NCBI GenBank assembly: GCA_024236215.1
Contig: JACKKX010000004.1
Location: forward strand, 1 to 64,000
DNA from: Novosphingobium sp.
GTDB lineage: Bacteria; Pseudomonadota; Alphaproteobacteria; Sphingomonadales; Sphingomonadaceae
Reading direction: 5' to 3'
DNA length: 64,000 nucleotides
Positions 7,420 to 26,138 of the stretch are shown piece by piece. Positions within the stretch are counted from its first letter, which is position 1; each line of letters starts with the position of its first letter. The notes under the pieces are model-generated. The model was given only the letters and a program-made list of their open reading frames with translations. It searched no databases and was not told where the DNA came from. The translations under genes were made by a program, and so were the position numbers.

Positions 7420-7469
7420 GGCCGCAAGCCTACCAGCCCCGGCGGCGCGCGCAATTGACCCTGGACAAG

Positions 7470-8770: not shown

Positions 8771-10087
8771 TCAGTCGATGGTGGCAAGCACGTCGGCAAG
8801 CTTGCCGAAGATTTCGTCGATATGGCTCTTTTCGAGGATCAGCGGCGGCGAAAGCGCGATGATATCGCCGGTCACGCGGATCAGCAGACCGGTGTCGAAG
8901 GCGCGGTGGAAAGCCTCCATCGCCCGCTTGGTAGGGGCGCCGGGGCGCGGCTCAAGCTCGATCCCGCCGATCAGGCCCACGTTGCGACAATCGATCACGT
9001 GGCGCGCACCCTTCAGCGAATGGACCGCGTCTTCCCAATAGCTCTCCAGCTCGATCGCCTTCTCGAACAGGTTCTCCTCGGCATAGGTTTCCATGCTGGC
9101 GATCGCTGCGGCGGCGGCCAGCGGGTGGCCCGAATAGGTATAGCCGTGGAACAGCTCGATCCCGGGGCCAGCCGAATTGACCACCGTATCGTGGATCTCG
9201 CGCCGCACCGCCACGGCCCCCATCGGCACCGCCGCGTTGGTCAGTCCCTTGGCCATGGTGATGATATCTGGGGTCACGCCGAACCGCTCGCTCGCGGTCG
9301 CCTTGCCGACCCGGCCGAATGCGGTGATGACCTCGTCGAAGATCAGAACAATTCCGTGCGCGTCGCAGATTTCGCGCAGACGGCTCAGGTAGCCCTGCGG
9401 GGGGATCAGTACCCCGGTCGATCCCGCCACCGGTTCGACGATCACCGCCGCGATGGTATCGGCGCCGTGCAGCGCGACGATCCGTTCCAGATCCTCGGCC
9501 AGCTCCGCCCCGTGCAGGGGCAGCCCGCGCGAAAAGGCATTGCGGGCCAGATCGTGGGTGTGGCGCAGATGGTCGACCCCCGCCAGCAGCGTGCCGAACT
9601 GGCGGCGATTGCCGACGATCCCGCCGACCGAGATGCCGCCGAAACCAACCCCGTGATAGCCGCGCTCGCGCCCGATCAGCCGGGTACGGGTGCCCTGCCC
9701 GCGCGCGCGCTGAAAGGCGAGCGCGATCTTGAGCGCGGTATCGACGCTTTCCGAGCCCGAATTGGTGAAGAAGATCCGGTCAAGCCCCTCGGGCATCAGC
9801 AGCGAGAGGCGCGAGGCGGCCTCGAACACCAGCGGATGTGCGAGCTGGAAGGTCGGTGCGAAATCGAGCGTGCCCGCGCAGGTGCGGATCGCCTCGACGA
9901 TCCGTTCGCGCCCGTGCCCGGCATTGACGCACCACAGCCCGCCCGTGGCATCGAGCACCTGGTGCCCGGCCGAGGCGGTGTAGTGCATGCCACGGGCGGC
10001 GACGAACATGCGCGGATCGGCCTTGAATCCCCGGTTGTCGGTGAAAGGCATCCAGAAGGCCGAAAGATCGTTGGGTTCGCTGGTCAA
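8771..10087 (-). CDS. Beta-alanine:pyruvate-type omega-aminotransferase
   Basis: A 438-residue class III aminotransferase most like omega-amino acid:pyruvate transaminases: the opening FWMPFTDNRGFKADPRM is a close match to the remembered N-terminus of the Pseudomonas enzyme, followed by TNSGSESVDTALKIA, GRERGYHGVGFGGISVGG, FDEVITAFGRVGKA and MAKGLTNAAVPMGAV with the PLP lysine, and HGYTYSGHPLAAAAA. It would transaminate beta-alanine, GABA or terminal diamines to pyruvate. Start is TTG at 10087, six bases after a GGAG site; no ATG is better placed. First gene of the leftward unit with gabT. Beta-alanine can arise from spermidine breakdown, fitting the polyamine locus. Confidence 0.85.
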   Translation of the reverse strand: MTSEPNDLSAFWMPFTDNRGFKADPRMFVAARGMHYTASAGHQVLDATGGLWCVNAGHGRERIVEAIRTCAGTLDFAPTFQLAHPLVFEAASRLSLLMPEGLDRIFFTNSGSESVDTALKIALAFQRARGQGTRTRLIGRERGYHGVGFGGISVGGIVGNRRQFGTLLAGVDHLRHTHDLARNAFSRGLPLHGAELAEDLERIVALHGADTIAAVIVEPVAGSTGVLIPPQGYLSRLREICDAHGIVLIFDEVITAFGRVGKATASERFGVTPDIITMAKGLTNAAVPMGAVAVRREIHDTVVNSAGPGIELFHGYTYSGHPLAAAAAIASMETYAEENLFEKAIELESYWEDAVHSLKGARHVIDCRNVGLIGGIELEPRPGAPTKRAMEAFHRAFDTGLLIRVTGDIIALSPPLILEKSHIDEIFGKLADVLATID

Positions 10088-10166
10088 GAGAGGCTCCGGG
10101 GCTTTAAGCGACTCACGATAGCGGTTGCCCGCAACGCGCGCTATTCGGATCGCCTCCTGCCAGTGC

Positions 10167-10183
10167 TATCGGAAAAGTCGATA
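10167..10183. promoter_or_regulatory. Predicted LysR operator, copy 1
   Basis: A dyad TATCG-N7-CGATA (arms 10167-10171 and 10179-10183), extended to CTATCG/CGATAG. The inner TCG-N7-CGA satisfies the T-N11-A rule of LysR-type regulators. It lies in the 233-base gap between the divergent aminotransferase and porin genes, centred about 146 bases before the porin ATG. A TATAGG at 10231-10236 would place a start near 10243, putting the dyad at about -68, the usual LysR recognition position. Two more copies with identical spacing lie at 18193-18209 and 22374-22390. Confidence 0.65.
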
Positions 10184-10320
10184 GCCATAGCCTCTACAAA
10201 TCCCATTGGCTTTGTCGAAAGATAAGGGGATATAGGACAGTGGAAGGAGAGGACCAGGCGGATTCACAAGGCAAAGGCCGCGAATTCGCACTGGCCCAAC
10301 CATCAGTGAGGGAAAACCAG

Positions 10321-11031
10321 ATGAATTATCGCTTGCTTCTGGCAGCTGCTGCTTTGCCGCTTGCCGCCATGCCCACCGCCGCCTTTGCGCAGGACGAAGA
10401 AGCCGAAGCTTCCGGCCCGATCACCATTTCGGGCGAAGTTGGCGTGTTCAGCGACTATCGCTTCCGCGGCCTGTCGCTGACCGACCATAAATTGGAGTTG
10501 ACCGCCGAACTTTCGGTCGAGCACGAATCCGGCCTCTATGCCGGGCTGTGGGCCTCGAACGTCGAACTGGGCAACGGCAAGGCCAACAATGTCGAGCTGG
10601 ACTGGTCGGCCGGCTGGTCGAAGGACATGGGCGGCGTGACGGTAGATGTCGGCGCGGTCTATTACACCTATGCCAACAATTCGGGCCTCAACTATATCGA
10701 GCTCTACGGCTCGGTTGGCACCACGCTCGGCCCGGTCGATGTGACCCTGGGCGCGGCCTATGCCCCCAGCCAGAACAATATCGGCAGCCAGGACAACACC
10801 TACGTCTACATCTCGGGCGAGCTGCCGGTGGGTGAAACCCCGCTTTCGCTGCACGGCACCTTCGGCTTCGAGGATGGCGCCTTCGCCAACAACAAGAAGG
10901 ACTGGATCGTGGGTGCGAGCTATGACATCGGCTCGGGTTTCTCCGCCAGCCTTGACTATGTCGATACTGCCCACTCGCTTTCCGCGTTGGGCGATGCGAC
11001 CGTGGTCGGCTCGATCAAGTTCGCTTTCTGA
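10321..11031 (+). CDS. TorF-family putative outer-membrane porin
   Basis: A 236-residue beta-barrel protein. Residues 1-23 are a Sec signal (MNYRLLLAAAALPLAAMPTAAFA-QD); the mature part starts with an acidic stretch, then SGEVGVFSDYRFRGLSLTD, the characteristic first block of the TorF/TIGR02001 porin family, alternating strands (for example VDVGAVYYTYANNSG), and ends with a strand terminating in Phe (GSIKFAF), the sorting signal of outer-membrane barrels. ATG 10321 follows GAGGG at a good distance; the longer in-frame GTG start would bury the signal peptide. It precedes the ligase operon by 54 bases with a hairpin between, and it shares the first predicted LysR operator, which suggests an outer-membrane route for polyamines or related cations. 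Confidence 0.8.
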   Translation: MNYRLLLAAAALPLAAMPTAAFAQDEEAEASGPITISGEVGVFSDYRFRGLSLTDHKLELTAELSVEHESGLYAGLWASNVELGNGKANNVELDWSAGWSKDMGGVTVDVGAVYYTYANNSGLNYIELYGSVGTTLGPVDVTLGAAYAPSQNNIGSQDNTYVYISGELPVGETPLSLHGTFGFEDGAFANNKKDWIVGASYDIGSGFSASLDYVDTAHSLSALGDATVVGSIKFAF

Positions 11032-11042
11032 CAGGAGTGTTT

Positions 11043-11069
11043 CGGGGCGTCCGTTGGCCGGGCGCCCCG
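11043..11069 (+). terminator. Strong hairpin between porin and ligase operon
   Basis: Arms 11043-11052 and 11060-11069 pair over 10 bp (one G-U) around a 7-nt loop, 12 bases after the porin stop. No T-run follows, so it more likely acts as an RNA stabiliser or partial terminator that lets the porin be made in excess over the downstream enzymes. Confidence 0.45.
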
Positions 11070-11085
11070 CAACAATGTGACAATC

Positions 11086-12435
11086 ATGACTACCGACATC
11101 GCCAGCTGGATCCGGGAACGCGCGATCAGCGAGGTGGAATGCATCGTCCCGGACATGAACGGGATCCAGCGCGGCAAGGTTTTGCCCGCCGCCAAGTTTC
11201 TCAAGAGCGTTGAGGACCGCACCCTGCGCATTCCGGGCAGCGTGTTCATCGTCACCGTCACGGGTGGCTATCCCGAGGATATCCAGCACATCGTCCCCGA
11301 TTTCGATCCGGACCTGATCCTGGTTCCCGACGCCACGACCATCCGCGAGGCACCGGGTTACAAGACCCCCACGGCCTATGTCATCGCCGATGCCTTCGAT
11401 GGGGCGGGCAAGGCGGTTGAAATCGCGCCGCGCCAGATCCTCAAGAAGGTCCTGGCGCTCTATGCGGCCAAGGGCTGGAAGCCGGTGATCGCACCGGAGG
11501 CCGAATTCTATCTCGTCTCGAAGAACCTCGACGCGGATTTTCCGCTGACCCCGCCGCCGGGCCGGTCGGGACGCGCGGAAACCGCCAGTGAGGCCTTCGG
11601 GCTGGAAGCGCTGAGCGAATACGAAGACATCATCGAGCAGATCTATGACTGGTGCGAAAAGGCCGAGCTCAACATCGACACGATGATCCACGAGGCCGGC
11701 GCCGCCCAGCTTGAGGTCAACTTCATTCACGGCGATCCGCTGGCCCTGGCCGATCAGGTGCTTCTGTTCAAGCGGATCGTGCGCCAGGTCGCGCTCGAAC
11801 ACGGGGTCTATGCCACCTTCATGGCCAAGCCGATGGCCGAGCAGCCCGGCAGCGCGATGCACATCCACCAGTCGGTGCTCAACGCCGAAACCGGGCGCAA
11901 CGTGTTTTCCACCCCCAATGGGCGGGATTCCGCGCTGTTTCGCAACCATATCGCGGGCCTGGTGCGGCTGATGCCGCAGATCCTGCCGATGGTCGCCCCC
12001 AACGTCAATTCGTTCCGCCGGATGCGCCCCGATACCGCGGCGCCGATCAACGTCCACTGGGGCGGCGACAACCGCTCGTGCGGTTTTCGCGTGCCGATCT
12101 CCGAAGCCAAGGATCGCCGGGTGGAGAACCGCATCGTCGGGGCAGACGCCAATCCCTACCTTGCCATCGCCGCCTCGCTGCTGTGCGGCTATATCGGCAT
12201 GGTCGATCGGATGATCCCGCCCAAGGCCCTGGCCGGCAACGCCTATAACCGCGCCCGCACCCTGCCGCGCACGCTGGAGGGCGCGCTAGACCGGTTCTGG
12301 AACTGCAAGCCGGTCAAGCGCGAGCTGGGCGAGGAGTTCTTCGAGGTGTTCTACGCGATCAAGCAGGCCGAACTCTACGCCTATCAGTCGGTAATCAGCT
12401 CCTGGGAGCGTGAATATCTGCTGCTGAAGGTGTGA
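11086..12435 (+). CDS. Gamma-glutamylpolyamine synthetase-like glutamine synthetase family protein (copy 1)
   Basis: A 449-residue glutamine-synthetase-fold ligase of the PuuA type, predicted to join glutamate to the amino group of putrescine or a related amine using ATP. The beta-grasp start (ECIVPDMNGIQRGKVLPA) is followed by the catalytic barrel with APEAEFYLV, HEAGAAQLEVNF, AMHIHQSVLN, PNVNSFRRMRPD and the RVENRIVGADANPYLAIAA block; those Glu, His and Arg positions are the metal, ATP and glutamate ligands of the family. No adenylylation Tyr motif is seen. ATG 11086 is preferred to GTG 11077. First gene of a coupled operon with a PuuB-like oxidase, an aminotransferase and a second ligase. 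Confidence 0.85.
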   Translation: MTTDIASWIRERAISEVECIVPDMNGIQRGKVLPAAKFLKSVEDRTLRIPGSVFIVTVTGGYPEDIQHIVPDFDPDLILVPDATTIREAPGYKTPTAYVIADAFDGAGKAVEIAPRQILKKVLALYAAKGWKPVIAPEAEFYLVSKNLDADFPLTPPPGRSGRAETASEAFGLEALSEYEDIIEQIYDWCEKAELNIDTMIHEAGAAQLEVNFIHGDPLALADQVLLFKRIVRQVALEHGVYATFMAKPMAEQPGSAMHIHQSVLNAETGRNVFSTPNGRDSALFRNHIAGLVRLMPQILPMVAPNVNSFRRMRPDTAAPINVHWGGDNRSCGFRVPISEAKDRRVENRIVGADANPYLAIAASLLCGYIGMVDRMIPPKALAGNAYNRARTLPRTLEGALDRFWNCKPVKRELGEEFFEVFYAIKQAELYAYQSVISSWEREYLLLKV

Positions 12436-12436
12436 C

Positions 12437-13708
12437 GTGAGCGCACACGCGCCGTCGTACTACGCGGCCACCGCCAAGCCGTTTCCTGCCCAGCCCCGGC
12501 TGGTTGGCGACATCAACGCCGACGTGGTGGTGGTGGGTGGCGGCTTCACCGGGCTTTCGGCCGCGCTTCACTGCGCCGAGGCGGGATACTCGGTGGTTCT
12601 GCTCGAAGCCGGACAGATCGGCTGCGCGGCCTCCGGGCGCAACGGCGGGCAGCTCATCCCCGGGCTGCGCTGGGGCGCGGTCGAGCTGGCCGAGCGCTTT
12701 GGCGAAGACACGGCGCGTCAACTGCTCGTGATCGCGAACAGCGCGGGCGATCTGGTGCGCGAGCGGATCGCGCGCCACGCGATCGCCTGCGACCTGCGCC
12801 AGGGGCACTTCCACGCCGCCGTCAAGCCCGCCCACCTCGACGATATGCGCCGCGAGCTTGCCATGCTCGAACGGCTGACGGGCTATCGAGGAGCCTCGAT
12901 CGTCGAACGCGGCGGGGTTTGCGATCAGGTTGCCGGGGGCGACTATCTGGGCGGCCTGTTCGATGCCAACGGCGGGCATTTCCATCCGCTCAACTATGCG
13001 CTCGGGCTGGCGGGGGCGGCGATGGCCGCCGGAGTCCGGATTTTCGAACACAGCCCTGTAACCGCCGTCGATCACGGCGCCCCGGTGATCGCCACGACCG
13101 CGAAAGGGCGGGTGACGGCCCGCCACGGGGTGCTGGCCTGCGACACGATGATGGACAGCGTCGCCCGCTCGCTGGGGCGGATGACCATGGGAATCGCCAA
13201 CTACAATGTCGCCACGCTTCCGCTCTCTCCGGAACGCGCGCGGGCACTGATCCCCAGCGGCGCGGCGGTTTCGGATTCCCGCTTCGTGCTCAATTATTTC
13301 CGCCTCAGCGCGGATGACCGGCTGATCTTCGGCGGGGGCGAGAAATATACCCGGCGCCCGCCAGCCGATGTGGCGGAGTTCGTCCGCCCCTACCTTGAAA
13401 AGATATTCCCGCAGCTAAAAGGCGTGGTGATCGACCATGCCTGGGGCGGCATGGTCGGGGTCACGCTCAACCGGCTGCCGCATTTCGGGCGGATCGGCAA
13501 TTCGTTCTTTGCTCACGGCTGGTCGGGGCATGGCGCCCTGCTGACCACGCTGGCCGGCCAGCTGATCGCCGAGGCGATGCGCGGCACCGCCGAACGCTTC
13601 GACCTGTTCGCTTCGCTTCCCGTCCACCCTTTCCCTGGCGGGCCGCTGCTGCGTCATCCGCTCTCGGTGGTGGGGATGCTGTGGTATGCCCTGAGGGACC
13701 GTCTATGA
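12437..13708 (+). CDS. Gamma-glutamylputrescine oxidase-like FAD flavoprotein
   Basis: A 423-residue DAO-fold flavoprotein. The dinucleotide-binding motif GGGFTG is at 34-39, followed by AALHCAEAGYSVVLLEA and CAASGRNGGQL, the signature of PuuB/OrdL oxidases; the C-terminal DHAWGGMVGVTLNRLPHFG and GHGALLTTLAGQLIAEA complete the FAD site. PuuB oxidises gamma-glutamylputrescine to the aldehyde with release of ammonia and peroxide. Start is GTG, one base after the stop of the ligase, and its stop overlaps the next ATG as ATGA, so translation is coupled along the operon. Substrate is inferred from context. Confidence 0.85.
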   Translation: MSAHAPSYYAATAKPFPAQPRLVGDINADVVVVGGGFTGLSAALHCAEAGYSVVLLEAGQIGCAASGRNGGQLIPGLRWGAVELAERFGEDTARQLLVIANSAGDLVRERIARHAIACDLRQGHFHAAVKPAHLDDMRRELAMLERLTGYRGASIVERGGVCDQVAGGDYLGGLFDANGGHFHPLNYALGLAGAAMAAGVRIFEHSPVTAVDHGAPVIATTAKGRVTARHGVLACDTMMDSVARSLGRMTMGIANYNVATLPLSPERARALIPSGAAVSDSRFVLNYFRLSADDRLIFGGGEKYTRRPPADVAEFVRPYLEKIFPQLKGVVIDHAWGGMVGVTLNRLPHFGRIGNSFFAHGWSGHGALLTTLAGQLIAEAMRGTAERFDLFASLPVHPFPGGPLLRHPLSVVGMLWYALRDRL

Positions 13709-15051
13709 TCGCCGATGCCGCCATTTCCGCGATGCTCGCCGCCGAGAAAGAGCGCTATGTCGCCGCCAACCCGCGCTCGGCGGCGCTGGCGAAAGAGGCC
13801 GCGCGACACTGGCACCGCGGGGTGCCTTTCCACTGGATGCTCGATTGGGGCACGCCCTTTGCGCTGTTCGCCGACCGCGCGGAAGGCGCCGAGCTGTGGG
13901 ATGTCGACGGGCATCGCTACGACGATTTCTGCCTGGGCGATACCGGATCGATGTTTGGCCATTCGCCCGGACCGGTGGCGGAGGCGATCGCGCGCCAGGC
14001 TGGCCGCGGCCTGACCTATATGCTGCCGACCGAGGACGCGGTGGTGGTGGCCGATGAGCTGGCGCGGCGTTTCAAGTTGCCGTTCTGGCAGGTGACATCC
14101 AGCGCCAGCGAGGCCAACCGCGCGGTGATCCGGTGGTGCCGGGGGATCACCGGGCGCAGCAAGGTGCTGGTGTTCAACGGATGTTACCACGGGGCGGTGG
14201 ATGACGTGTTCGTCGATCTGCGCGATGGGGTTCCCGAACTGCGCCGCAGCCTGGTCGGCCAGGTCTATGACGTGCGCGAGCATACCGTGGTGATCGAATT
14301 CAACGATCTCGCCGCGCTCGAAGCCGCGCTCGGCGGGGGCGACGTTGCAGCCGTGCTGATGGAGCCGGCGATGACCAATGTCGGCATGGTCCTGCCCGAT
14401 CCCGGCTATCTTGCCGCGCTGCGCCAGCTGACCCAGCGCCACGGCACACTGCTGGTGTTCGACGAGACCCATACGATCTCCACCGGCTACGGCGGCCATA
14501 CTGGCACCTTCGGCCCGCTGCCCGATCTCTTCGTGCTGGGCAAGCCGGTGGCGGGCGGGGTGCCCTGCGCGGTCTATGGCTTTTCCGCCGAAGTGGCCGA
14601 ACGCATGGAGCGATGCCGCGAAGCGGGGGAAAAGGGCCATTCGGGAATCGGCACCACGCTTTCCGCCAATGCCCTGGCGCTGGCGGCGATGCGCGCCTGC
14701 CTGACCGAAGTGATGACGCCCGCCGCCTACGACCACATGCTGCCGCTGGCCGAGCAGCTTGCCGCCAGTCTGCGCGAAGTGATCGCCCGCAACGGGCTTG
14801 ACTGGCACGTTGCCCATGTCGGTTCGCGCGGCGAATTCATCTGCGATCCCACCCCGGCCCGCAACGGCAGCGAGGCGCGGGCCAAGATGCACGGTGCGCT
14901 TGAGCACGCGTTGCACCTGTTCCTCATCAACCGCGGCGTGCTGATCGCGCCGTTCCACAACATGACCCTGGTCAGCCCGGCCACCACGCAGGCGCAGGTT
15001 GCGCGCCTTGCCGAAGTGCTGGATGACTGCCTCAAGACCCTGATCGGATGA
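13705..15051 (+). CDS. Class III aminotransferase of the glutamate-1-semialdehyde aminomutase-like branch
   Basis: A 448-residue PLP enzyme. HRGVPFHWMLDWGTPFALF, VTSSASEANRAVIRWCR, FNGCYHGAVDDVFVDL, FDETHTISTGYGGHTG and LGKPVAGGVPCAVYGF (PLP lysine) place it near HemL-like aminotransferases rather than GabT. Members outside haem synthesis are often general transaminases or aminomutases. It sits between two gamma-glutamylpolyamine-synthetase-like genes, overlapping both by ATGA, so it should act on a polyamine or a gamma-glutamylated intermediate. A true hemL role is unlikely in this context. ATG 13705 has a GAGGGA ribosome site; the longer in-frame GTG reaches into the oxidase gene. Confidence 0.8.
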   Translation: MIADAAISAMLAAEKERYVAANPRSAALAKEAARHWHRGVPFHWMLDWGTPFALFADRAEGAELWDVDGHRYDDFCLGDTGSMFGHSPGPVAEAIARQAGRGLTYMLPTEDAVVVADELARRFKLPFWQVTSSASEANRAVIRWCRGITGRSKVLVFNGCYHGAVDDVFVDLRDGVPELRRSLVGQVYDVREHTVVIEFNDLAALEAALGGGDVAAVLMEPAMTNVGMVLPDPGYLAALRQLTQRHGTLLVFDETHTISTGYGGHTGTFGPLPDLFVLGKPVAGGVPCAVYGFSAEVAERMERCREAGEKGHSGIGTTLSANALALAAMRACLTEVMTPAAYDHMLPLAEQLAASLREVIARNGLDWHVAHVGSRGEFICDPTPARNGSEARAKMHGALEHALHLFLINRGVLIAPFHNMTLVSPATTQAQVARLAEVLDDCLKTLIG

Positions 15052-16439
15052 CCACCATGACCGTGACCAGCTCAAACCACCGCGCCCTCGCCCAGGAGGC
15101 CGAAGATTTCTTCGCCGCCAACCCCGATGTCGATGCGATCGACATCATCTTCACCAACATCTGCGGAGTGCCGCGCGGCAAGCGGCTGCGTCAGCACGAG
15201 GTCAAGGCGGTCTACCAGAGCGGCCGGTTCCTCCCCGGATCGGTGCTGGTGGTGGACATCACCGGGCGTGACTGCGAGGAAACCGGGCTGGTCTGGGAGG
15301 ATGGCGACGCCGATCGCTATGTCTATCCCGTGCCCGGCACGCTGGTCCGCGCGCCCTGGCTGGGCGAAAACCATGCCCAGTTCCTGACCAGCTTCTACGA
15401 GCTGGACGGTACGCCCAACGATCTCGACCCGCGCCACGTGCTGGGCCGGGTGATCGATGGGCTGGCCGAGCAAGGGCTGACACCGGTGGTCGCGGTCGAG
15501 CTGGAATTCTATCTCTGCGATCTTGAAGACGGAAAGCCGGTTCCGGCCCGCGGAATGGTCACCGGCCACCGGTCGAGCGATATCCAGGTCTATGGCCTGC
15601 GCGAAATGGAGGATCTCCAGCCCTTCTTCGACGATCTCTACGCCGCCTGCGACGAACAGGGTCTGCCGCTGGAAAGCGGAATTTCCGAGTATGCGCCGGG
15701 CCAGTTCGAGTTCACGCTGCGCCACAAGCCCGACGCGCTGCGCGCCACCGACGATGCGATCATGTACAAGCGGCTGGTCAAGGGCGTTGCGGTTGCCCAC
15801 GGGCTTGAGGCGACCTTCATGGCCAAGCCCTTCGCCGAAAGCGCCGGTTCGGGCATGCACCTGCACATCTCGATGGCCGACAAGGATGGCAACAACGCCT
15901 TTGCCAGCGAGGATCCCGAGGGCACACCTCTGCTGCGCCACGCGATCGGGGGGATGAAGGCGCTGCTGGCCGAATCGATGGCGATCTTTGCCCCCAACGC
16001 CAATTCGTTCCGCCGCTTCAAGGCCAATTCCTATGCCCCCGTCGCGGCGACCTGGGGGGTCAACAACCGCACGGTTTCGCTGCGCATTCCGGCCGGTTCG
16101 CCCGCCTCGCGCCATGTCGAACACCGCATCTGCGGGGCCGATGCCAACCCCTATCTGGCAGTGGCGGCGGTGCTTGCAGCGATGCTCCACGGGATTCGCG
16201 GGCAAATCGATCCCGGCCCGGCGGTAGTGGGCAACGGCTACGAAGCCGAAGGCGCCGACATCCGTTTGCCCAACCACTGGGCCGCCGCGATCGAGGCGTT
16301 CGAGAATTCCGAGCTGATGAAGCGCTATCTGGGCGATCGGTTCGTGAAGCACTTTTCGACCGTCAAGGGCGTGGAAATGGCCCGCTTCATGGCCGAGGTG
16401 ACCCAGCTCGACTATGACTGGTACCTGCGCAACGCCTGA
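15048..16439 (+). CDS. Gamma-glutamylpolyamine synthetase-like glutamine synthetase family protein (copy 2)
   Basis: A 463-residue second ligase of the same family as 11086-12435: IDIIFTNICGVPRGKRLRQ, VAVELEFYLCDL, SGISEYAPGQFEFTL, GMHLHISMADKDG, PNANSFRRFKANSYAP and HRICGADANPYLAVAA. It differs from copy 1 at the substrate side: the first half has extra acidic stretches (DCEETGLVWEDGDADRY), and RFKANSYAP replaces RMRPDTAAP. The two copies therefore probably take different amines rather than being simple duplicates. It overlaps the aminotransferase by ATGA and closes the operon. Confidence 0.85.
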   Translation: MTTMTVTSSNHRALAQEAEDFFAANPDVDAIDIIFTNICGVPRGKRLRQHEVKAVYQSGRFLPGSVLVVDITGRDCEETGLVWEDGDADRYVYPVPGTLVRAPWLGENHAQFLTSFYELDGTPNDLDPRHVLGRVIDGLAEQGLTPVVAVELEFYLCDLEDGKPVPARGMVTGHRSSDIQVYGLREMEDLQPFFDDLYAACDEQGLPLESGISEYAPGQFEFTLRHKPDALRATDDAIMYKRLVKGVAVAHGLEATFMAKPFAESAGSGMHLHISMADKDGNNAFASEDPEGTPLLRHAIGGMKALLAESMAIFAPNANSFRRFKANSYAPVAATWGVNNRTVSLRIPAGSPASRHVEHRICGADANPYLAVAAVLAAMLHGIRGQIDPGPAVVGNGYEAEGADIRLPNHWAAAIEAFENSELMKRYLGDRFVKHFSTVKGVEMARFMAEVTQLDYDWYLRNA

Positions 16440-16482
16440 TCGCGCGTGGCGGGTTGAAGGATCGCCGGTCTTGTAGCAACCT

Positions 16483-16507
16483 CTCTCCCGGGTTTTGAGA
16501 GGGAGAG
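16483..16507 (+). promoter_or_regulatory. Hairpin covering the DUF2189 ribosome-binding site
   Basis: CTCTCCC (16483-16489) pairs with GGGAGAG (16501-16507) around an 11-nt loop. The 3' arm is the Shine-Dalgarno of the gene starting at 16513, so folding would hide it. It may also be a weak end-of-operon structure. Seen in sequence; function inferred. Confidence 0.3.
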
Positions 16508-16512
16508 GCGCA

Positions 16513-17295
16513 ATGGCGGCACAAGGCCAGTCTCAGATCATTCCGGTCGCGATCGCGCGCGACCTGGTGCTGGGCGATCTGCGCCGGGCGCTCGGCGCGG
16601 GTTGGCGCGATTTCGCGAAATGCCCCGGTTATGGGTTGTTCTTCGGCTCGATCTTCGTCGCCTCGGGGATTTTCCTCTACCTGGCCTTGTTTCGCTGGAA
16701 CGAGGCGGAATGGCTGATTCCCGCCGCTGCGGGTTTTCCGCTGCTGGCGCCCTTCGTCGCGGTCGGGCTCTACGAGGTCAGCCGCCGGCGCGAGGCAGGA
16801 TTGCCGGTCACCTGGGGCGCGGTGCTGGGCGCGGTGCGCGGGCGCGGCGACGATCAGCTGCTGATGATGGGCGGGTTCGTGTTCGTGGGCTTCACTTTCT
16901 GGATGATCCTGGCCCACGGCATCTTCGCGATCTTCATGGCCGAATCGGGCGTCGGCAGCGAATCGCTGGCCCTGTTCACCACCTGGTCGGGGATCTTGAT
17001 GCTGCTGGTCGGCACGGTGATCGGGGCGCTGGTGGCGCTGGTGTTCTATGCGGTGACGGTGATCAGCCTGCCGATGCTGGTCGATCGCGATGTCGATTTC
17101 CTCACCGCGATCATCGTCAGTCTGGCTTCGATCCGCGCCAATGGCTTCGTGCTGGTGGCCTGGGCGGCGGTGATCGCCATCCTGCTGTTCGTGGCGATGC
17201 TGCCGTTCTTCCTGGGTCTGCTGGTGGTGCTGCCGGTGCTGGGCCATGCCACCTGGCACCTCTATCGCCGGGTGATCGCGGAACCCGCGGCCTGA
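16513..17295 (+). CDS. DUF2189 family inner-membrane protein
   Basis: A 260-residue polytopic membrane protein of the DUF2189 family. The N-terminal RDLVLGDLRRALGAGWRDFAKCP motif is typical, followed by about six membrane segments arranged in pairs, with the family block FYAVTVISLPMLVDRDVDFLTAI between segments 4 and 5. Function is unknown; the fold belongs to a broad group of small integral membrane proteins. ATG 16513 has a GGGAGAGG ribosome site. It is 73 bases after the ligase operon and convergent with the LysR gene (3 bases apart), so it may be read through from the polyamine operon, but nothing shows a role there. Confidence 0.8.
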   Translation: MAAQGQSQIIPVAIARDLVLGDLRRALGAGWRDFAKCPGYGLFFGSIFVASGIFLYLALFRWNEAEWLIPAAAGFPLLAPFVAVGLYEVSRRREAGLPVTWGAVLGAVRGRGDDQLLMMGGFVFVGFTFWMILAHGIFAIFMAESGVGSESLALFTTWSGILMLLVGTVIGALVALVFYAVTVISLPMLVDRDVDFLTAIIVSLASIRANGFVLVAWAAVIAILLFVAMLPFFLGLLVVLPVLGHATWHLYRRVIAEPAA

Positions 17296-17298
17296 TCC

Positions 17299-18195
17299 TT
17301 ACCGGCGGTGCTGGTGCACCGTTTCCATGAACAGCGCGGCCGGCTCGCTGTGGCGGGTGAGGCGGCGCCAGGCCATGCCGATATCCACCGTGGGCAGGCT
17401 TTCGCGGGTGCGCTTGGCGACGATCCGGTCGCCATCGAGGCTCCACGGGCGATAGACCAGATCGGGCAGCAGGGTGATCCCGGCACCAGTGCCGACCAGG
17501 CTGCGCACCCCTTCCATGCTGCTGGTGCGCCAGGCGACGCGCGGCGGATGATCGAACTTTGACCAGATCCCGTCGATCAGCCCCTCCAGCTCGTCGAGCG
17601 CCAGCGCCACCAGTGCCTCGTTCTCAAGGTCGGCCAGGCTCAGCCCATCGACATCGGACAGCGGATGGCCCGGCGCCATCCAGGCGCGGCATTCGCTGCG
17701 CAGCAGCACCTCGTGGTCGATTGCGGCGCGCTGTTCGAGGTTGGAGACGATCAGCAGCGCCAGATCGAGCTCCCCCCCGACCAGCATGTGTTCGACATAG
17801 GCGCGCTTGTCCTCGACCAGCGCGATCTCGATCCGGGGGAACAGCCGCTGAAAGCGCGAGACCAGGTCGGAAAGGAAATAGCCGGTGACCACCGGGGTCA
17901 CCCCGATCCGCACCTTGCCCTCGGTCTGGTCCTGTTCGCGGCCCACCCCGCCCGCCATGTCGGCCACGGCATCGATGATCGAACGGGCGTGGCGCAGGAA
18001 CTGCTGCCCTTCGCGGGTCAGCGTCACCCCCTTGGCGTGGCGGTGAAACAGGCTGACCCCGGTTTCCAGCTCAAGCGTGCGCACTGCGTCGGTCACCGCG
18101 CTTTGGGAAATGCCCACCGCGCTGGCCCCGCCCGAGACCGAGCGCGCCTCCGCCACGGCGATAAAATAGCGAATCTGGCGAAAAGTGATGTTCAT
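17299..18195 (-). CDS. LysR-type transcriptional regulator of the polyamine locus
   Basis: A 298-residue LysR protein: winged helix-turn-helix at residues 1-60 (MNITFRQIRYFIAVAEARSV, SQSAVTDAVRTLELETGVSLF) and an effector domain with RIGVTPVVTGYFLSDLVSRF and a C-terminal TGAGITLLPDLVY block. I start at ATG 18195 because the DNA-binding domain begins there; upstream in-frame codons belong to the promoter gap. It is divergent from the Pot-type importer genes. A TCG-N7-CGA dyad overlaps its own start codon, which suggests autorepression, and two further copies stand before the porin/aminotransferase pair and before the aldehyde dehydrogenase gene. The inducer is probably putrescine or an intermediate (inference). 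Confidence 0.88.
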   Translation of the reverse strand: MNITFRQIRYFIAVAEARSVSGGASAVGISQSAVTDAVRTLELETGVSLFHRHAKGVTLTREGQQFLRHARSIIDAVADMAGGVGREQDQTEGKVRIGVTPVVTGYFLSDLVSRFQRLFPRIEIALVEDKRAYVEHMLVGGELDLALLIVSNLEQRAAIDHEVLLRSECRAWMAPGHPLSDVDGLSLADLENEALVALALDELEGLIDGIWSKFDHPPRVAWRTSSMEGVRSLVGTGAGITLLPDLVYRPWSLDGDRIVAKRTRESLPTVDIGMAWRRLTRHSEPAALFMETVHQHRR

Positions 18196-18209
18196 CGGTT
18201 TTTTCGATA
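18193..18209. promoter_or_regulatory. Predicted LysR operator, copy 2
   Basis: CATCG (18193-18197), seven bases of mostly T, and CGATA (18205-18209). Same spacing and orientation as the other two copies; ATCGG and CGATA are shared by all three. The left arm covers the LysR start codon on the minus strand and the site lies 131 bases before the importer's first ATG. A CATAAT at 18222-18227 could be a -10 for the rightward promoter. Confidence 0.55.
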
Positions 18210-18340
18210 CCTCTCGGATTGCATAATCTACTGGCATCGCGCGCGATAGAGGGCATTCTTGCCGCTTCGATGCTTGCAGCCGCGCCAAAGCGGGCTAGCA
18301 TTCCTGCCAGAAGCAACACCAACTACGGGGACTTGGGCAC

Positions 18341-19453
18341 ATGACGAACTTCGCCAACCAGCGTGGAATGAAACTTGGCCGCCGCTCGCTCTTGCAGGCG
18401 CTGGGCGTTGCGGCCGTGGGGATCAGCTTTGGCGGGCTGGCCGCATGCTCGAAGGGCGGCGACGGCAAGATCGGCTCCACCGGCGAAGAGCCCAAGCTCA
18501 ACTTCTACAACTGGGATACCTACATCGGCGAAACCACCCTGGCGGATTTCAAGGGCGCCAGCGGGATCGACGTGAATATGAGCCTGTTCGCCACCAATGA
18601 CGAACTGTTCGCCAAGCTGCGCGCGGGCAATCCGGGGTTCGACGTGATCGTGCCATCGAACGATTTCGTCGAGCGGATGATCCAGTCCGACCTGATCCTT
18701 CCGCTCGACCACGATCAGATCCCCAACATGAAGAACATCGACCCGACCTTCATCGACGTCGCCTATGATCCGGGCCGCAAGTATTCGATGCCCTATACCT
18801 GGCTGACGCTGGGGATCGGCTATCGCAAGAGCAAGGTGAAGGCCCGGCCCGACAGCTGGAAGGTGCTGTTCGATTCGGATGAGTACAAGGGCCGGATCGC
18901 CCTGCTGTCGGAGGCTGGCGACGTGATCCGCCTGGGTGCCAAGTACCTTGGCAAGTCGGTCAACGGCCTGACCGAGGCCGATATCAAGCAGGTTGAGGCG
19001 ATGCTGATCAAGCAGAAGCCCAACATCAAGGCTTTCCACGAAGACAACGGGCAGGATCTGCTACTTTCGGGCGAGGTCGATCTGGTGCTCGAATACAACG
19101 GCGACATCGCCCAGGTGATGACCGAGGACGACGATATCGACTTCGTCCTGCCCAAGGAGGGCAGCCAGCTCAATTCCGATACGCTGTGCATTCCCAAGGG
19201 CGCGCCGCGGCCCAAGAACGCCCATGCCTTCATCAACTATCTGCTCGATGCGGAAGTCGGCAAGAAGATCACAGAGACGATTCTCTATCCCACGCCGAAC
19301 GCCGCCGCCAAGGCGCTGATGCCCGACAGCTACAAGAACAATCCGGTGATCTTCCCGCCGGCCGACCTGCTCGCCAAGTGCGAATACGCGGCCTACAACG
19401 AGAAGCTCCAGCCGCTCTACGAAGACGCCTTCACCCGCATCCGCGCGGCCTGA
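18341..19453 (+). CDS. potF: Putrescine/spermidine-binding lipoprotein of a Pot-type ABC importer
   Basis: A 370-residue substrate-binding protein. The N-terminus carries a twin-arginine-like GRRSLLQ followed by a hydrophobic stretch and a LAAC lipobox, so it is probably a lipoprotein exported folded or by Sec. The mature region has LNFYNWDTYIGETTLADF, the standard opening of PotD/PotF, then DVIVPSNDFVERMI and a C-terminal VDLVLEYNGDIAQV. These bind putrescine or spermidine in a cleft lined by Trp and Asp residues; which polyamine cannot be decided here. First gene of a four-gene import operon. The symbol is given by family; PotD remains possible. Confidence 0.88.
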   Translation: MTNFANQRGMKLGRRSLLQALGVAAVGISFGGLAACSKGGDGKIGSTGEEPKLNFYNWDTYIGETTLADFKGASGIDVNMSLFATNDELFAKLRAGNPGFDVIVPSNDFVERMIQSDLILPLDHDQIPNMKNIDPTFIDVAYDPGRKYSMPYTWLTLGIGYRKSKVKARPDSWKVLFDSDEYKGRIALLSEAGDVIRLGAKYLGKSVNGLTEADIKQVEAMLIKQKPNIKAFHEDNGQDLLLSGEVDLVLEYNGDIAQVMTEDDDIDFVLPKEGSQLNSDTLCIPKGAPRPKNAHAFINYLLDAEVGKKITETILYPTPNAAAKALMPDSYKNNPVIFPPADLLAKCEYAAYNEKLQPLYEDAFTRIRAA

Positions 19454-19488
19454 AACCGTAGCTGAGCCCTTCGGGTCGGGGAGCAACG

Positions 19489-20391
19489 ATGGAGGACTGG
19501 AAAAGAAGCCGGGCACTGTTTGCCGCCGTCGCCACGGCGCCGCTGACCTGGCTCACGCTGTTCTTCATCATCCCCATGGGGGTGATCTGGCTCTACAGCT
19601 TCGGCACCAACGCGGGACTGACCGAAATCGAGATTTCTGGCACCCTCGCCAACTACAAGAAGGCGCTCGAGCCTCTCTATCTGGGCATCTTTGCCAAATC
19701 GCTGGTGGTAGCCGGGATCACCACCGCGATTTGCCTGGTGGTGGGGTTTCCGGTTGCCCTGGCGATCGTTTTCGCCAGCGACAAGTGGAAACCCTGGCTG
19801 CTGCTGGGGATCATGCTGCCGTTCTGGACCAATCTTCTGATCCGCACCTATGCCCTGATGGCGGTGCTCAGGACCGAGGGCTATGCCAATCAGGCAATCG
19901 GCTGGCTGCATGACCGGTTCGGAGGACTGTTGACGCTGGTCGGCCTCCCCGCCCCCGGCGCGTACGAGCCGCTGCACCTGCTCTACAACAATTTCGCGGT
20001 GGTGCTGGGGCTGGTCTATGTCCACCTGCCCTTCATGGTTCTGCCGCTCTATGCCGCGCTTGACCGGCTCGATCGCTCGCTGATCGAGGCCAGCCTCGAT
20101 CTGGGCGCGGGGCATTTGCGCACCCTGCTGCTGATCGTCGCCCCGCTGGCCGCGCCGGGGATCATCTCGGGGATCATCATCACCTTTGTCCCTGCGCTGG
20201 GTGCCTACCTCACCCCGGATCTGCTCGGCGGAACCGACAGCCAGATGATCGCCAACGTGATCGAACGCCAGTTCAAGCGCGCCAACAACTGGCCGTTCGG
20301 CGCGGCGCTTTCGTTCCTGCTGATGTATGCCACTTTCATCGCCATCGCCATCCAGGCGCTCAAGGCCAAACAGGCGGAGAAGCGCCGATGA
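19489..20391 (+). CDS. potH: Polyamine ABC importer permease 1
   Basis: A 300-residue inner-membrane permease of the PotB/PotH type with about six membrane segments (for example TWLTLFFIIPMGVIWLYSF at the start) and the cytoplasmic coupling loop EASLDLGAGHLRTLLLIVAPLAAPGI, the EAA motif that docks on the ATPase. GTYLTPDLLGGTDSQMI-like sequence (GAYLTPDLLGGTDSQMI here) is a strong marker of polyamine permeases. ATG 19489 follows GGGGAG. Its stop overlaps the second permease by ATGA. Confidence 0.9.
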   Translation: MEDWKRSRALFAAVATAPLTWLTLFFIIPMGVIWLYSFGTNAGLTEIEISGTLANYKKALEPLYLGIFAKSLVVAGITTAICLVVGFPVALAIVFASDKWKPWLLLGIMLPFWTNLLIRTYALMAVLRTEGYANQAIGWLHDRFGGLLTLVGLPAPGAYEPLHLLYNNFAVVLGLVYVHLPFMVLPLYAALDRLDRSLIEASLDLGAGHLRTLLLIVAPLAAPGIISGIIITFVPALGAYLTPDLLGGTDSQMIANVIERQFKRANNWPFGAALSFLLMYATFIAIAIQALKAKQAEKRR

Positions 20392-21236
20392 AACTGCTTG
20401 GCAAGCGCGCGCCGGTCGCCCCGCTCGAATATACCCGCCGCTGGTCGATGCGGATCTGGGTCGGGCTGGTGTTGCTGTTCCTCTATACCCCGCTGATTAC
20501 GCTGGTGGCGTTCAGCTTCAACGACAGTCGCCGCAACATCGTCTGGCGCGGGTTCACCACCAAGTATTACGAAAAGGCGCTGCACAACTCGAGCCTGATG
20601 GAAGCGCTGACCAACTCGATCACCATCGCCGCCCTGGCTACCGTGGTCAGCGTGGTGCTGGGGGCGCTGGCGGCGGTGCTGCTGTGGCGGTTCCGCTTTC
20701 CCACCAAGGCCGGCTGGGAAGGCGCGATGGCCCTGCCGATCGTGGTGCCCGAGATCTGCATGGGCGTTGCCATGCTGGCCTTCTTCGCCAGGCTCGACCT
20801 GCCGCAGGATCTGCCCTGGCCGTTCGATCTGTCGCAGATCACCATCGCCCACATCACCTTCTGTTTCCCCTTCGTGGCGATGGTGGTGCGATCGCGCCTC
20901 GCCAGCTTCAACCGCGAGGAAGAGGAAGCAGCCAAGGACCTGGGCGCGAGCGAATGGCAGGCGTTCCGCGATGTGCTGCTGCCGCACATGAAACCGGGGC
21001 TGATCGCCGGGGCCTTGCTGGCCTTTACCCTCAGCCTCGACGATTTCGTCATCACCTTCTTCACCTCGGGCCCGAACACCGTGACCTTCCCGGTCAAGGT
21101 CTATTCGATGGTCCGCTTCTCGGTCACGCCCGAGGTCAACGCCGCATCGGCGCTGGTCATCGCGCTGACCGTCCTGCTCACCACGATCGCGCTCAAGCTG
21201 CAAAGCCGCATGGGCACGATCGCGCAAGGTCACTGA
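20388..21236 (+). CDS. potI: Polyamine ABC importer permease 2
   Basis: A 282-residue permease of the PotC/PotI type. It has the N-terminal segment VGLVLLFLYTPLITLVAFSF, FNDSRRN, about six membrane segments, and the EAA loop EEAAKDLGASEWQAFRDVLLP that contacts the ATPase. FTLSLDDFVITFFTSGPNT is a conserved block of this permease subfamily. It pairs with the preceding permease to form the translocation pore. ATGA overlap upstream, one base to the ATPase gene downstream, so the subunits are translationally coupled. Confidence 0.9.
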   Translation: MKLLGKRAPVAPLEYTRRWSMRIWVGLVLLFLYTPLITLVAFSFNDSRRNIVWRGFTTKYYEKALHNSSLMEALTNSITIAALATVVSVVLGALAAVLLWRFRFPTKAGWEGAMALPIVVPEICMGVAMLAFFARLDLPQDLPWPFDLSQITIAHITFCFPFVAMVVRSRLASFNREEEEAAKDLGASEWQAFRDVLLPHMKPGLIAGALLAFTLSLDDFVITFFTSGPNTVTFPVKVYSMVRFSVTPEVNAASALVIALTVLLTTIALKLQSRMGTIAQGH

Positions 21237-21237
21237 C

Positions 21238-22371
21238 ATGTCCGACAAGACCCCGATCATCTCGATCCGCAACGTCACCAAACGCTTCAAGGGTGCGCCC
21301 AGCGCGGCGGTAGACGATGTCAGCCTGGATATCATGCCGGGCGAATTTTTCGTCCTGCTCGGCCCCTCGGGCTGCGGCAAGACCACGCTGCTCAGGATGA
21401 TCGCCGGGTTCGAGATTCCCACCAGCGGACAGATCCTGATCGACGGGCAGGACATGGCCGATGTTCCGCCCAACAAGCGCCCGGTCAACATGGTGTTCCA
21501 GTCCTACGCGGTGTTCCCGCACATGACCGTGGCGCAGAACGTGGGCTACGGTCTCAAGATCGCCGGGATCGGCGCCGACGAGATCAGGAGCCGGGTTGCC
21601 GAGGCACTCGAACTGGTCAAGCTCGACGGGCTCGATGCGCGCATGCCCGATCAGCTTTCGGGCGGGCAGCGCCAGCGCGTCGCGCTGGCCCGCAGCCTGG
21701 TGATGCGCCCCAAGGTGCTGCTGCTCGACGAGCCGCTCTCCGCGCTCGATGCCAAGCTGCGCGCGCAGATGCAGTTCGAGCTGGCCGATCTGCAGGACAA
21801 GGTCGGGATCACCTTCATCACCGTCACCCACGATCAGGACGAGGCGCTGTCGATGGCCGGACGGATCGCGGTGATGAACAAGGGCGATGTCGCGCAGCTC
21901 GCGGCGCCGGCCGATCTCTACGAATATCCCGCCAACCGCTTCGTCGCCGATTTCGTCGGCTCGGTGAACATCTTCGAGGGCAAGCTGACCCTGGACGAGC
22001 CTGACAAGGCGGCGGTCGATTGCCCTGGCCTGGGCAAGGTCTGGCTCAACCACGGAGTAACCGGCGCGCACGGATCGAACGTCTGGGTCGCGCTTCGGCC
22101 CGAGAAGATCTACCTTCACGTCCCCGGCGAGGGCAAGGCGGTGCGCGCCGCCGCCGAAGATGCCCCCGAAGGGCACAATTTCGCCCGCGGCCAGATCAAG
22201 GGGATGAGCTATCTGGGCGATATCACGCTCTACGAAATCCAGCTCGATTGCGGCGCGATGATCCGCGTCTCGCGCCCCAACCTGTCGCGCCACGATCAGG
22301 AAGATTTCACCTGGGATGACCGCGTTTCGATGCATTGGCGCGCCGATAGCCCGGTGGTCCTGCTGAGCTGA
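21238..22371 (+). CDS. potG: Polyamine ABC importer ATP-binding subunit
   Basis: A 377-residue ABC ATPase. Walker A is GPSGCGKTT at 42-50; the signature LSGGQRQRVALARSL, Walker B VLLLDEPLSALD and the switch His in FITVTHDQDEA follow. The C-terminal third is a TOBE-type regulatory domain (WVALRPEKIYLHV, MSYLGDITLYEI), as in PotA/PotG/MalK ATPases. It energises import by the two permeases and the lipoprotein receptor encoded just upstream. The operon ends here: 102 bases and the third LysR operator separate it from the aldehyde dehydrogenase gene. Confidence 0.92.
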   Translation: MSDKTPIISIRNVTKRFKGAPSAAVDDVSLDIMPGEFFVLLGPSGCGKTTLLRMIAGFEIPTSGQILIDGQDMADVPPNKRPVNMVFQSYAVFPHMTVAQNVGYGLKIAGIGADEIRSRVAEALELVKLDGLDARMPDQLSGGQRQRVALARSLVMRPKVLLLDEPLSALDAKLRAQMQFELADLQDKVGITFITVTHDQDEALSMAGRIAVMNKGDVAQLAAPADLYEYPANRFVADFVGSVNIFEGKLTLDEPDKAAVDCPGLGKVWLNHGVTGAHGSNVWVALRPEKIYLHVPGEGKAVRAAAEDAPEGHNFARGQIKGMSYLGDITLYEIQLDCGAMIRVSRPNLSRHDQEDFTWDDRVSMHWRADSPVVLLS

Positions 22372-22373
22372 GG

Positions 22374-22390
22374 GATCGGCTTTTCCGATA
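22374..22390. promoter_or_regulatory. Predicted LysR operator, copy 3
   Basis: GATCG (22374-22378), seven bases, CGATA (22386-22390), starting three bases after the importer operon. It shares with copy 1 the longer context CGATAGCCAT-n-GC. It stands 83 bases before the aldehyde dehydrogenase ATG, suggesting that this gene has its own regulated promoter. A TAGGTT at 22436-22441 could be the -10, placing the dyad near -65. Confidence 0.6.
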
Positions 22391-22472
22391 GCCATCGCTT
22401 TCCATTTCGTATTTCACCCCATGCCGCGCCGCGCCTAGGTTGCGCGCCAGTTTCAACGCAGGAAAACCCATC

Positions 22473-23903
22473 ATGTTTGACAGTCGCGGCCAGTTCATCG
22501 GCGGCGTGGCGCTTGCCGGGGAAGAAGCCCCCGAAGCGGTATTCAATCCCGCCAGCGGTGAGGAAATCGCCCAGATCGCCAGCGCCAGCCGCACCCAGGC
22601 CGATGCCGCAGTGGCCGCGGCCGAGCGCGCCTTTGCAGTATGGTCGCGGATGCCGCCCAAGGAACGCTCGCTGCGCATGCTGCGTATCGCCGAGCGGATC
22701 GAGGAGCTGGCCGACGAATTCGCGCTGCTGGAAATGACCAATTGCGGCAAGCCGATCGGCACCGCCAAGGCGGTCGATGTCGGCAACACGGTTGACGTGT
22801 TCCGCTTTTTTGCCGGGGCCGCACGCACCGTGCCGGGGGTTCCGGCGGGCGAATACCGCCCCGGCTTCACCTCGATGCTGCGCCGCGATCCGCTGGGCGT
22901 GTGCGTGGGGATCGCGCCGTGGAACTATCCGCTGATGATGGCGGCGTGGAAGATCGCTCCGGTGATCGCCGCGGGCAACACCGTGGTGCTCAAGCCTTCG
23001 GAGCACACCCCGCTGAGCGCGCTCAGGCTGGCCGAGGTTTGCGCCGAATTCCTGCCCGAAGGGGTGGTCAACGTGGTTACCGGCAACGGCGCCAGCGTTG
23101 GCGCGCGGCTGGTGGCACATCCCCGGGTGCGGATGGTTTCGCTGACCGGCGATGTCGCCACCGGGCGCAAGATCCTCGAAGCGGTGGCCCCGACGATCAA
23201 GCGCACCCATTTCGAGCTGGGCGGCAAGGCCCCGGTGATCGTGTTGGCCGATGCCGACATTCCCGCTGCGGTCGAGGCGATAGCCGAGGGCGGCTATTAC
23301 AACGCCGGGCAGGATTGCACCGCGGCCTGCCGGGTCTATGCCCACGGCGCGATCCATGACCGGCTGGTGGCCGAACTGCAGCGCGCGATCGAGGCGATCG
23401 CGCTGGGCGATCCGGCCGAACCCGGCACCGCGCTCGGCCCGCTGATAACCGCCCGCCAGCGCGACCGGGTCGATGGCTTCGTTGCCCGCGCCCGCGCCGA
23501 TACTCCGGCCGAAGTGGTGACCGGCGGCTTCAGCCCCAACCGCCCCGGTTTCTTCTATGCCCCGACGCTGATCGCCGGCGCGCGCCACAGCGACGAGATC
23601 GTGCAGAAGGAGGTGTTCGGTCCGGTGGTTTCCGTCACCCGCTTTGACAGCGACGATCAGGCGCTCGAATGGGCCAACGATTGCGAATATGGCCTCGCCA
23701 GCTCGGTCTGGACCCAGGACGTGGGCAAGGCCAACATGTTCGCCTCGCGCCTTGAATACGGCGTTACCTGGATCAACACCCATTCGGTCAATGTCACCGA
23801 AATGCCCCACGGCGGGGTCAAGAGCTCGGGCTATGGGTCGGACCTTTCGGTCTATTGCCTTGAGCATTATATGACCACCAGGCACGTGATGATGAAGCAC
23901 TGA
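22473..23903 (+). CDS. Gamma-aminobutyraldehyde-type NAD(P) aldehyde dehydrogenase
   Basis: A 476-residue ALDH-superfamily enzyme. Landmarks: [35 protein letters not shown] for the cofactor, [11 protein letters not shown] with the general-base Glu, and [14 protein letters not shown] with the nucleophilic Cys, then [13 protein letters not shown]. The GQDCTAACR context is typical of aminobutyraldehyde dehydrogenases (PatD) rather than succinate-semialdehyde enzymes. It should oxidise 4-aminobutanal from the putrescine transaminase, or gamma-glutamyl-aminobutanal from the PuuB-like oxidase. ATG 22473 has an AGGAAA site; an in-frame TTG at 22440 lacks one. The PuuD-like gene starts 2 bases after the stop. 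Confidence 0.88.
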
Positions 23904-23905
23904 GC

Positions 23906-24646: not shown

Positions 24647-24702
24647 ACACCCGCGTCACCCGCACCAACCGCTTTCTGGCCCGCACCGGCTTTTCTCCCT
24701 GA
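24643..24702 (+). CDS. Possible 19-aa leader peptide
   Basis: ATG at 24643 overlaps the puuD stop as ATGA and encodes 19 residues rich in Arg and Thr (MNTRVTRTNRFLARTGFSP) before a stop 51 bases ahead of the putrescine aminotransferase gene. It could be a coupling ORF that carries ribosomes across the gap, a decayed gene start, or chance. No ribosome site of its own is needed given the overlap. Confidence 0.25.
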   Translation: MNTRVTRTNRFLARTGFSP

Positions 24703-24753
24703 GGCCGGCGTTCGCCCATCGAACGCCTGCCAAGATCCAAGGGAGAACCCTAA

Positions 24754-26127: not shown

Positions 26128-26138
26128 AGGAAGCCCGA

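Follow-up and report, generated by a model that had tools for sequence, protein, structure and literature searches.

In this study, we analysed a stretch of 64,000 nucleotides from Novosphingobium sp. (contig JACKKX010000004.1, positions 1 to 64,000, assembly GCA_024236215.1; hereafter the window), in which three near-identical dyads of the form TCG-N7-CGA lie in the gaps of a locus for amine uptake and breakdown that also encodes a LysR-type regulator. These dyads are very probably the recognition sites of the local LysR protein, which would govern a regulon confined to this locus, for taking up and degrading amines of the putrescine/γ-aminobutyrate (GABA) type, as suggested by their computed position, specificity, conservation, co-inheritance and average −66 geometry. 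The fuller anatomy of the regulon comprises three predicted operators, four outward promoters and lysR itself (Table 1). We therefore retain, as an inferred unit, the single LysR regulon for polyamine use put forward in a preliminary description of this DNA, with conservation, co-inheritance and the specificity of an A/T-rich core as its support. Sequence inspection and exact pattern matching placed the three dyads where that description had located them, with ATCGG-N6-CGATA matching at 10168-10183, 18194-18209 and 22375-22390. All three contain TCG-N7-CGA and follow the T-N11-A rule for LysR sites, and the tail said to be common to copies 1 and 3 is indeed shared (CGATAGCCATAGC and CGATAGCCATCGC). 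The spacing, described as equal, is so for the half-sites within each dyad but not for the dyads, which are 8026 and 4181 bp apart. Each copy occupies its own regulatory gap, as had been stated, but copy 2 additionally overlaps the start of lysR and, on the lysR strand, ends in the start codon. A search of the window with the 17-mer TATCGRAAAANYCGATA, allowing up to 3 mismatches, returned no fourth copy, in line with the earlier inspection of the gaps.

The strongest evidence comes from orthologous loci. Scanning genome contigs with the LysR protein yielded 21 loci, namely 19 orthologues with 77-100% identity over residues 1-298 and two relatives at 26-30% identity, which were left out. The orthologues were drawn from Novosphingobium, Sphingosinicella, Altererythrobacter, Erythrobacter and unassigned sphingomonads. 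Together with two loci from family genomes G136 and G091 (L102 and L103) they form a comparison set of 21 loci, in which the stretches L099, L100 and L101 were not counted again beside L029, L031 and L033. At up to 3 mismatches, the dyad is present at lysR in all 21 loci, in the gap between aptA and the genes for the porin and the first glutamine-synthetase-like (GS-like) protein, GS1, in all 15 loci whose contig reaches that far, and before the aldehyde dehydrogenase gene in 14 of the 19 loci that cover the gap behind the importer genes, so that conservation upstream of orthologous genes is borne out. The five exceptions follow the length of this last gap: the dyad is found wherever it measures at least 104 bp (13 of 13 tabulated loci, and L025, outside the table) and is absent from 5 of 5 loci with at most 75 bp, where transcription of the aldehyde dehydrogenase gene presumably reads on from the importer. 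Lowering the threshold to 2 mismatches recovered 42 of the 50 dyad sites with no other match in 362,883 bases, while at 3 mismatches all 50 sites (by construction) were accompanied by 3 others.

Within its own genome the motif is specific only in its extended form. ATCGG-N6-CGATA has 15 exact matches in the 3,083,015 bases, 3 in the locus and 12 elsewhere, and is therefore not specific as written; the expectation that it would be confined to polyamine genes fails for this pattern and holds for the form with the A/T-rich core. A core run of at least four A/T is common to the three dyads and occurs in only one of the 12 outside matches (contig C5), and the resulting motif TATCGRAAAANYCGAT has 3 exact matches in the whole genome, all in the polyamine locus. 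Since this motif was fitted to these three copies, its genomic specificity alone proves little, and the independent support for the predicted sites is their conservation in other genomes. Chance occurrence in GC-rich DNA could be argued from the 12 other genome matches and from the 144 matches that ATCGG-N6-CGATA has in the window when up to 2 mismatches are allowed; however, the genomic rate of exact matches is about 0.3 per 64 kb, so that three in the window still exceed expectation, and conservation of the dyads at fixed places in other genomes refutes this explanation, to which we give practically no weight. All 12 outside matches lie within stop-to-stop frames of at least 100 codons, which is a weak test in GC-rich DNA. 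The motif TATCGRAAAANYCGAT has three further matches in its own genome at 1 mismatch and 37 at 2 mismatches. None of the three was accepted as a further target. Two lie inside open frames (an aldo/keto reductase and an enoyl-ACP-reductase-like protein, names assigned by eye), and the third lies on contig C5 among small open frames without clear function, where the stray near-perfect copy ATCGGAAAATCCGATA is found (L015 1501-1516).

The dyad is inherited together with this particular lysR. Of 99 family genomes, six encode an orthologue of the LysR protein; the same six are those with the aldehyde dehydrogenase at 82% identity or more, beside one further match at 53%. For aptA, 20 matches in 19 genomes were obtained; the dyad is located upstream in 5 of 5 cases within the lysR locus and in none of the 15 homologues outside it (up to 1.5 kb upstream of each), which include three divergent aptA/GS1 pairs and one second copy, outside the locus, in a lysR-bearing genome. 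Exact matches of the TATCGRAAAANYCGAT type occur in four of the six family genomes with lysR (7 matches, all in the locus), and the other two have dyad sites with mismatches only. Co-inheritance with lysR and the absence of the dyad at the 15 other aptA homologues thus argue for the local LysR as the regulator. In the genus, the orthologue is present in at least 6 of 195 genomes, own genome included, as judged from a search with a distant homologue as query, in which only some candidates per genome were scored; in all five other genomes, probably those behind L024-L028, the dyad is positioned at the lysR start. The distribution of the orthologue is patchy, with this small number in the genus and presence in several other genera, pointing to loss or transfer.

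Three genus genomes contain distant LysR homologues (38-40%), each followed by an aldehyde dehydrogenase gene (53-58% identity). Near one of them a TCG-N7-CGA dyad ends three bases before its own lysR start (L123 1485-1497), near the second a 2-mismatch site is located upstream of lysR (L131 1433-1449) and another, with 3 mismatches, in front of the aldehyde dehydrogenase gene, and near the lysR of the third neither type of site was found. With three genomes being too few cases, we do not claim a shared operator among these homologues.

The copy at lysR suggests how the regulator might control its own level. The predicted −10 element of lysR, which reads TATAAT in five orthologous loci, begins 27 bp from the dyad centre, and the dyad is therefore predicted to span the first transcribed bases together with the start codon. 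As operator 2 covers the start codon and the adjoining conserved block covers the predicted −10 element, autorepression by LysR is to be expected and appears likely from this arrangement. In 11 of the 19 scanned loci, as in the window, an otherwise intact site ends in the ATG; in five loci (four from Sphingosinicella, one from Sphingomonadaceae), the ATG of the dyad precedes the start expected from the protein match by three codons in the same frame. Alternatively, this copy might act in the RNA, as a hairpin hiding the start codon. Its first five base pairs are allowed by 20-22 of 22 sequences and the leader in the window folds slightly better than shuffled sequences (z −1.9, 11/200), but the loop-adjacent pair is unpairable in 12 of the 22 without matching changes, four other leaders reach z-scores of only −0.4 to −1.5, and the other two dyads are far from any start codon, with position and orientation that suit DNA. 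We therefore reject the hairpin as not supported and regard it as very improbable. The window, like 7 of 21 loci, has a TATCG half-site on the lysR strand exactly 39 bp upstream of operator 2 (18193-18255, minus), which may belong to a second LysR contact.

Outward of each dyad, a conserved, promoter-specific block is followed by −10-like hexamers at a recurring distance. When the mean −10 score was computed for offsets of 40-99 from the dyad centre, it peaked at 55 for the porin promoter (z 3.5) and at 54 for the aptA, importer and aldehyde dehydrogenase promoters (z 3.8, 3.4 and 4.3), while the backward control direction from operator 3 gave no peak (z 0.9). In all 14 sequences of the aldehyde dehydrogenase promoter, the highest-scoring hexamer within offsets 40-75 lies at 54-55. 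Offsets of 54-55 place the dyad centre near −66 of the predicted starts. In LysR-type transcriptional regulators (LTTRs), the recognition site with T-N11-A is described around −65, with the activation site at the promoter (PMC8407307), and the average geometry found here would thus correspond to the classical LysR position, although it relates to predicted starts and is weak per sequence for the porin. This arrangement also bears on whether LysR binds the dyads but mainly represses, to be released by an inducer. In E. coli, the LysR-type protein PtrR, which acts in putrescine use, reportedly represses sad (PMC9068703); the dyads studied here, however, are arranged as for an activator, about 66 bp upstream of the predicted catabolic starts and over the start of lysR only, which makes mainly repressive action rather unlikely.

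Several points weigh against activation by the local LysR from these sites. The orthologous loci are related and not independent of one another, with L024 hardly differing from the window and several more loci being closely related. Two copies of the lysR dyad (L032 and L033) have a damaged right half with the ATG retained, and that of L037 is shifted by one base. The exact short motif also occurs in 9 of 93 family genomes without this LysR (10 matches, each inside a stop-to-stop frame of 100 codons or more, again a weak test at this base composition) and, once each, in 3 of 58 other genus genomes. The −10 matrix was entered by hand, and in single sequences the best hexamer is at 54-55 in only 6 of 15 readable aptA and 3 of 16 porin sequences, compared to 2 of 14 in the control. 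For the importer, it is exactly at 54 in 5 of 21 sequences and at 52-54 in 12 of 21, and in part of the loci a second candidate promoter follows farther downstream (18274-18301 in the window). Finally, the local regulator is assigned only from its position and co-inheritance, and the dyads could instead be bound by a regulator encoded elsewhere, with lysR merely one of its targets. Against this, every locus with this lysR has the dyad across the lysR start, no dyad precedes the aptA homologues elsewhere, and both the T-N11-A form and the −66 position suit a LysR protein, so that we consider a distant regulator improbable.

We propose a model in which binding, activation, autorepression and inducer are inferred as follows. 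At each dyad of the form TATCG-(A/T-rich core)-CGATA, a LysR tetramer would be anchored and would also contact a second site of looser sequence next to the target promoter, for which the conserved blocks are candidates. An inducer, probably an amine or acid of the pathway, would then lead to activation, the transcripts beginning some 66 bp outward of the dyad centre. Operator 1 would serve both the divergent aptA-gabT genes and the porin/GS operon, operator 2 the importer operon and operator 3 the aldehyde dehydrogenase operon, while LysR would repress lysR by covering its −10 element and start codon. More tentatively, and with somewhat less than even confidence in the whole, we suggest a single near-symmetrical operator (10167-10183) driving two divergent promoters, each about 66 bp away, a second copy holding the lysR start codon, and one LysR protein that controls uptake, the breakdown of amines and its own abundance through three near-identical sites, that replaces PuuR-type control in part of Sphingomonadales and that responds to a pathway acid like HinK, the regulator of histamine breakdown in Pseudomonas. 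The circuit is neat but conventional, a regulon of a very familiar kind.

Table 1. Features of the locus in window coordinates. Operators, blocks and promoter elements are predictions; operator sequences are given on the A-rich strand, and offsets are counted from the dyad centre.
Feature	Position	Strand	Remarks
GABA transaminase (gabT)	7470-8756	-	TIGR00700, 597.9 bits, cut-off 506.65
Omega-aminotransferase AptA	8771-10087	-	NF052567, 725 bits, cut-off 500
-10-like hexamer, aptA promoter	10116-10121	-	CTATCG; mean peak offset 54
Operator 1 (predicted)	10167-10183	+	TATCGGAAAAGTCGATA; divergent gap, aptA versus porin/GS operon
Conserved block	10198-10210	+	AAATCCCATTGGC; candidate second LysR site, porin promoter
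-10-like hexamer, porin/GS promoter	10229-10235	+	mean peak offset 55; weakest of the four
TorF-type porin	10321-11031	+	TIGR02001, 120 bits, cut-off 47
GS-like protein, FAD oxidoreductase, class III transaminase, second GS-like protein	11077-16439	+	profile scores and neighbours
LysR-type regulator, 298 aa	17299-18195	-	HTH_1 and LysR_substrate above Pfam cut-offs
Operator 2 (predicted)	18193-18209	-	TATCGAAAAAACCGATG; ends in the lysR start codon
Conserved block	18219-18234	+	TTGCATAATCTACTGG; candidate second LysR site, importer promoter; includes lysR -10
Predicted lysR -10	18223-18228	-	GATTAT
-10-like hexamer, importer promoter	18254-18260	+	mean peak offset 54
Rival importer promoter	18274-18301	+	TTGCAG-16-TAGCAT; in part of the loci
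Polyamine-type ABC importer (binding protein, two permeases, ATPase)	18341-22371	+	profile matches
Operator 3 (predicted)	22374-22390	-	TATCGGAAAAGCCGATC; between importer ATPase gene and aldehyde dehydrogenase gene
Conserved block	22403-22415	+	CATTTCGTATTTC; candidate second LysR site, aldehyde dehydrogenase promoter
-10-like hexamer, aldehyde dehydrogenase promoter	22436-22441	+	TAGGTT; mean peak offset 54
Aminobutyraldehyde dehydrogenase subfamily protein, C26 hydrolase, class III aminotransferase, succinate-semialdehyde dehydrogenase	22473-27581	+	

The LysR protein scores 68.0 bits on HTH_1 (cut-off 26.6) and 125.9 bits on LysR_substrate (cut-off 28). It passes no NCBIfam cut-off among the 25 models listed of 53, the PtrR model giving 63.9 bits (cut-off 400). 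An AlphaFold2 model of the protein had a mean predicted local distance difference test score (pLDDT) of 41.8 and was not used. Among proteins of solved structure, this LysR is most similar to 3fzv and 6m5f (phmmer, E about 2e-32), which we take to be HinK (PA0218). HinK is described as a LysR protein that controls an amine transporter, an aminotransferase, an aldehyde dehydrogenase and itself and that responds to imidazole acetate, the acid of its pathway (PMC8231116), and it is reported to use a T-N11-A box (PMC10912698). The substrate genes here differ from those of HinK, which is the best precedent for the inducer. Classical LTTR operators, as outlined in PMC8407307, similarly combine a T-N11-A dyad around −65 with a second site near the promoter and a regulator gene beside its targets, whereas here three near-identical dyads are found in one locus and the lysR copy includes the start codon. 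PtrR (YneJ) of E. coli is likewise a LysR protein tied to GABA/putrescine breakdown, but is reported to control sad through the motif TTCACnAATnGAGAA (PMC9068703); compared by eye, the three dyads do not match this operator as given in that source.

Among relatives without this lysR and without the dyad, genome G098 carries a PuuR-like gene (161 bits, cut-off 211) between aptA and GS1 (L118 9092-9700), making an exchange of regulators on the same pathway, LysR versus PuuR-like, possible. PuuR is an XRE-cupin protein unrelated to LysR. In E. coli it is reported to control the gamma-glutamyl putrescine pathway (PMC9068703), a role similar to that proposed here. Among the literature matches listed, we found no description of this regulon. 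The analysis provides a testable operator and a likely role for a LysR protein that passes none of the listed NCBIfam models, delimits a predicted polyamine regulon of Sphingomonadales that includes porin and importer, and offers a simple test case for the sharing of one LysR dyad by two divergent promoters.

The gene content of the locus agrees with amine uptake and breakdown to differing degrees. The importer ATPase passes the potA model (TIGR01187, 388 bits, cut-off 355.6), while the binding protein scores below the PotF and PotD cut-offs. The models for the aminobutyraldehyde dehydrogenase subfamily and for succinate-semialdehyde dehydrogenase were both passed above their cut-offs. Since the two GS-like proteins (178 and 224 bits on the PuuA model, cut-off 650) and the C26 hydrolase (below the PuuD cut-off) remain under these thresholds, the genes at 11077-16439 are assigned from the company they keep, as a probable gamma-glutamyl-amine branch. 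Adjoining gabT, a protein with a beta-CASP metallo-beta-lactamase (MBL) fold is encoded (window 5812-7797), with 318 bits on the Cas14 MBL model (cut-off 800) and 218 on aCPSF1 (cut-off 580), and is neither of the two by these cut-offs. Between the second GS-like gene and lysR lies a gene for a DUF2189 membrane protein (window 16495-17295), which by similarity is found in one of the 19 scanned loci, L024.

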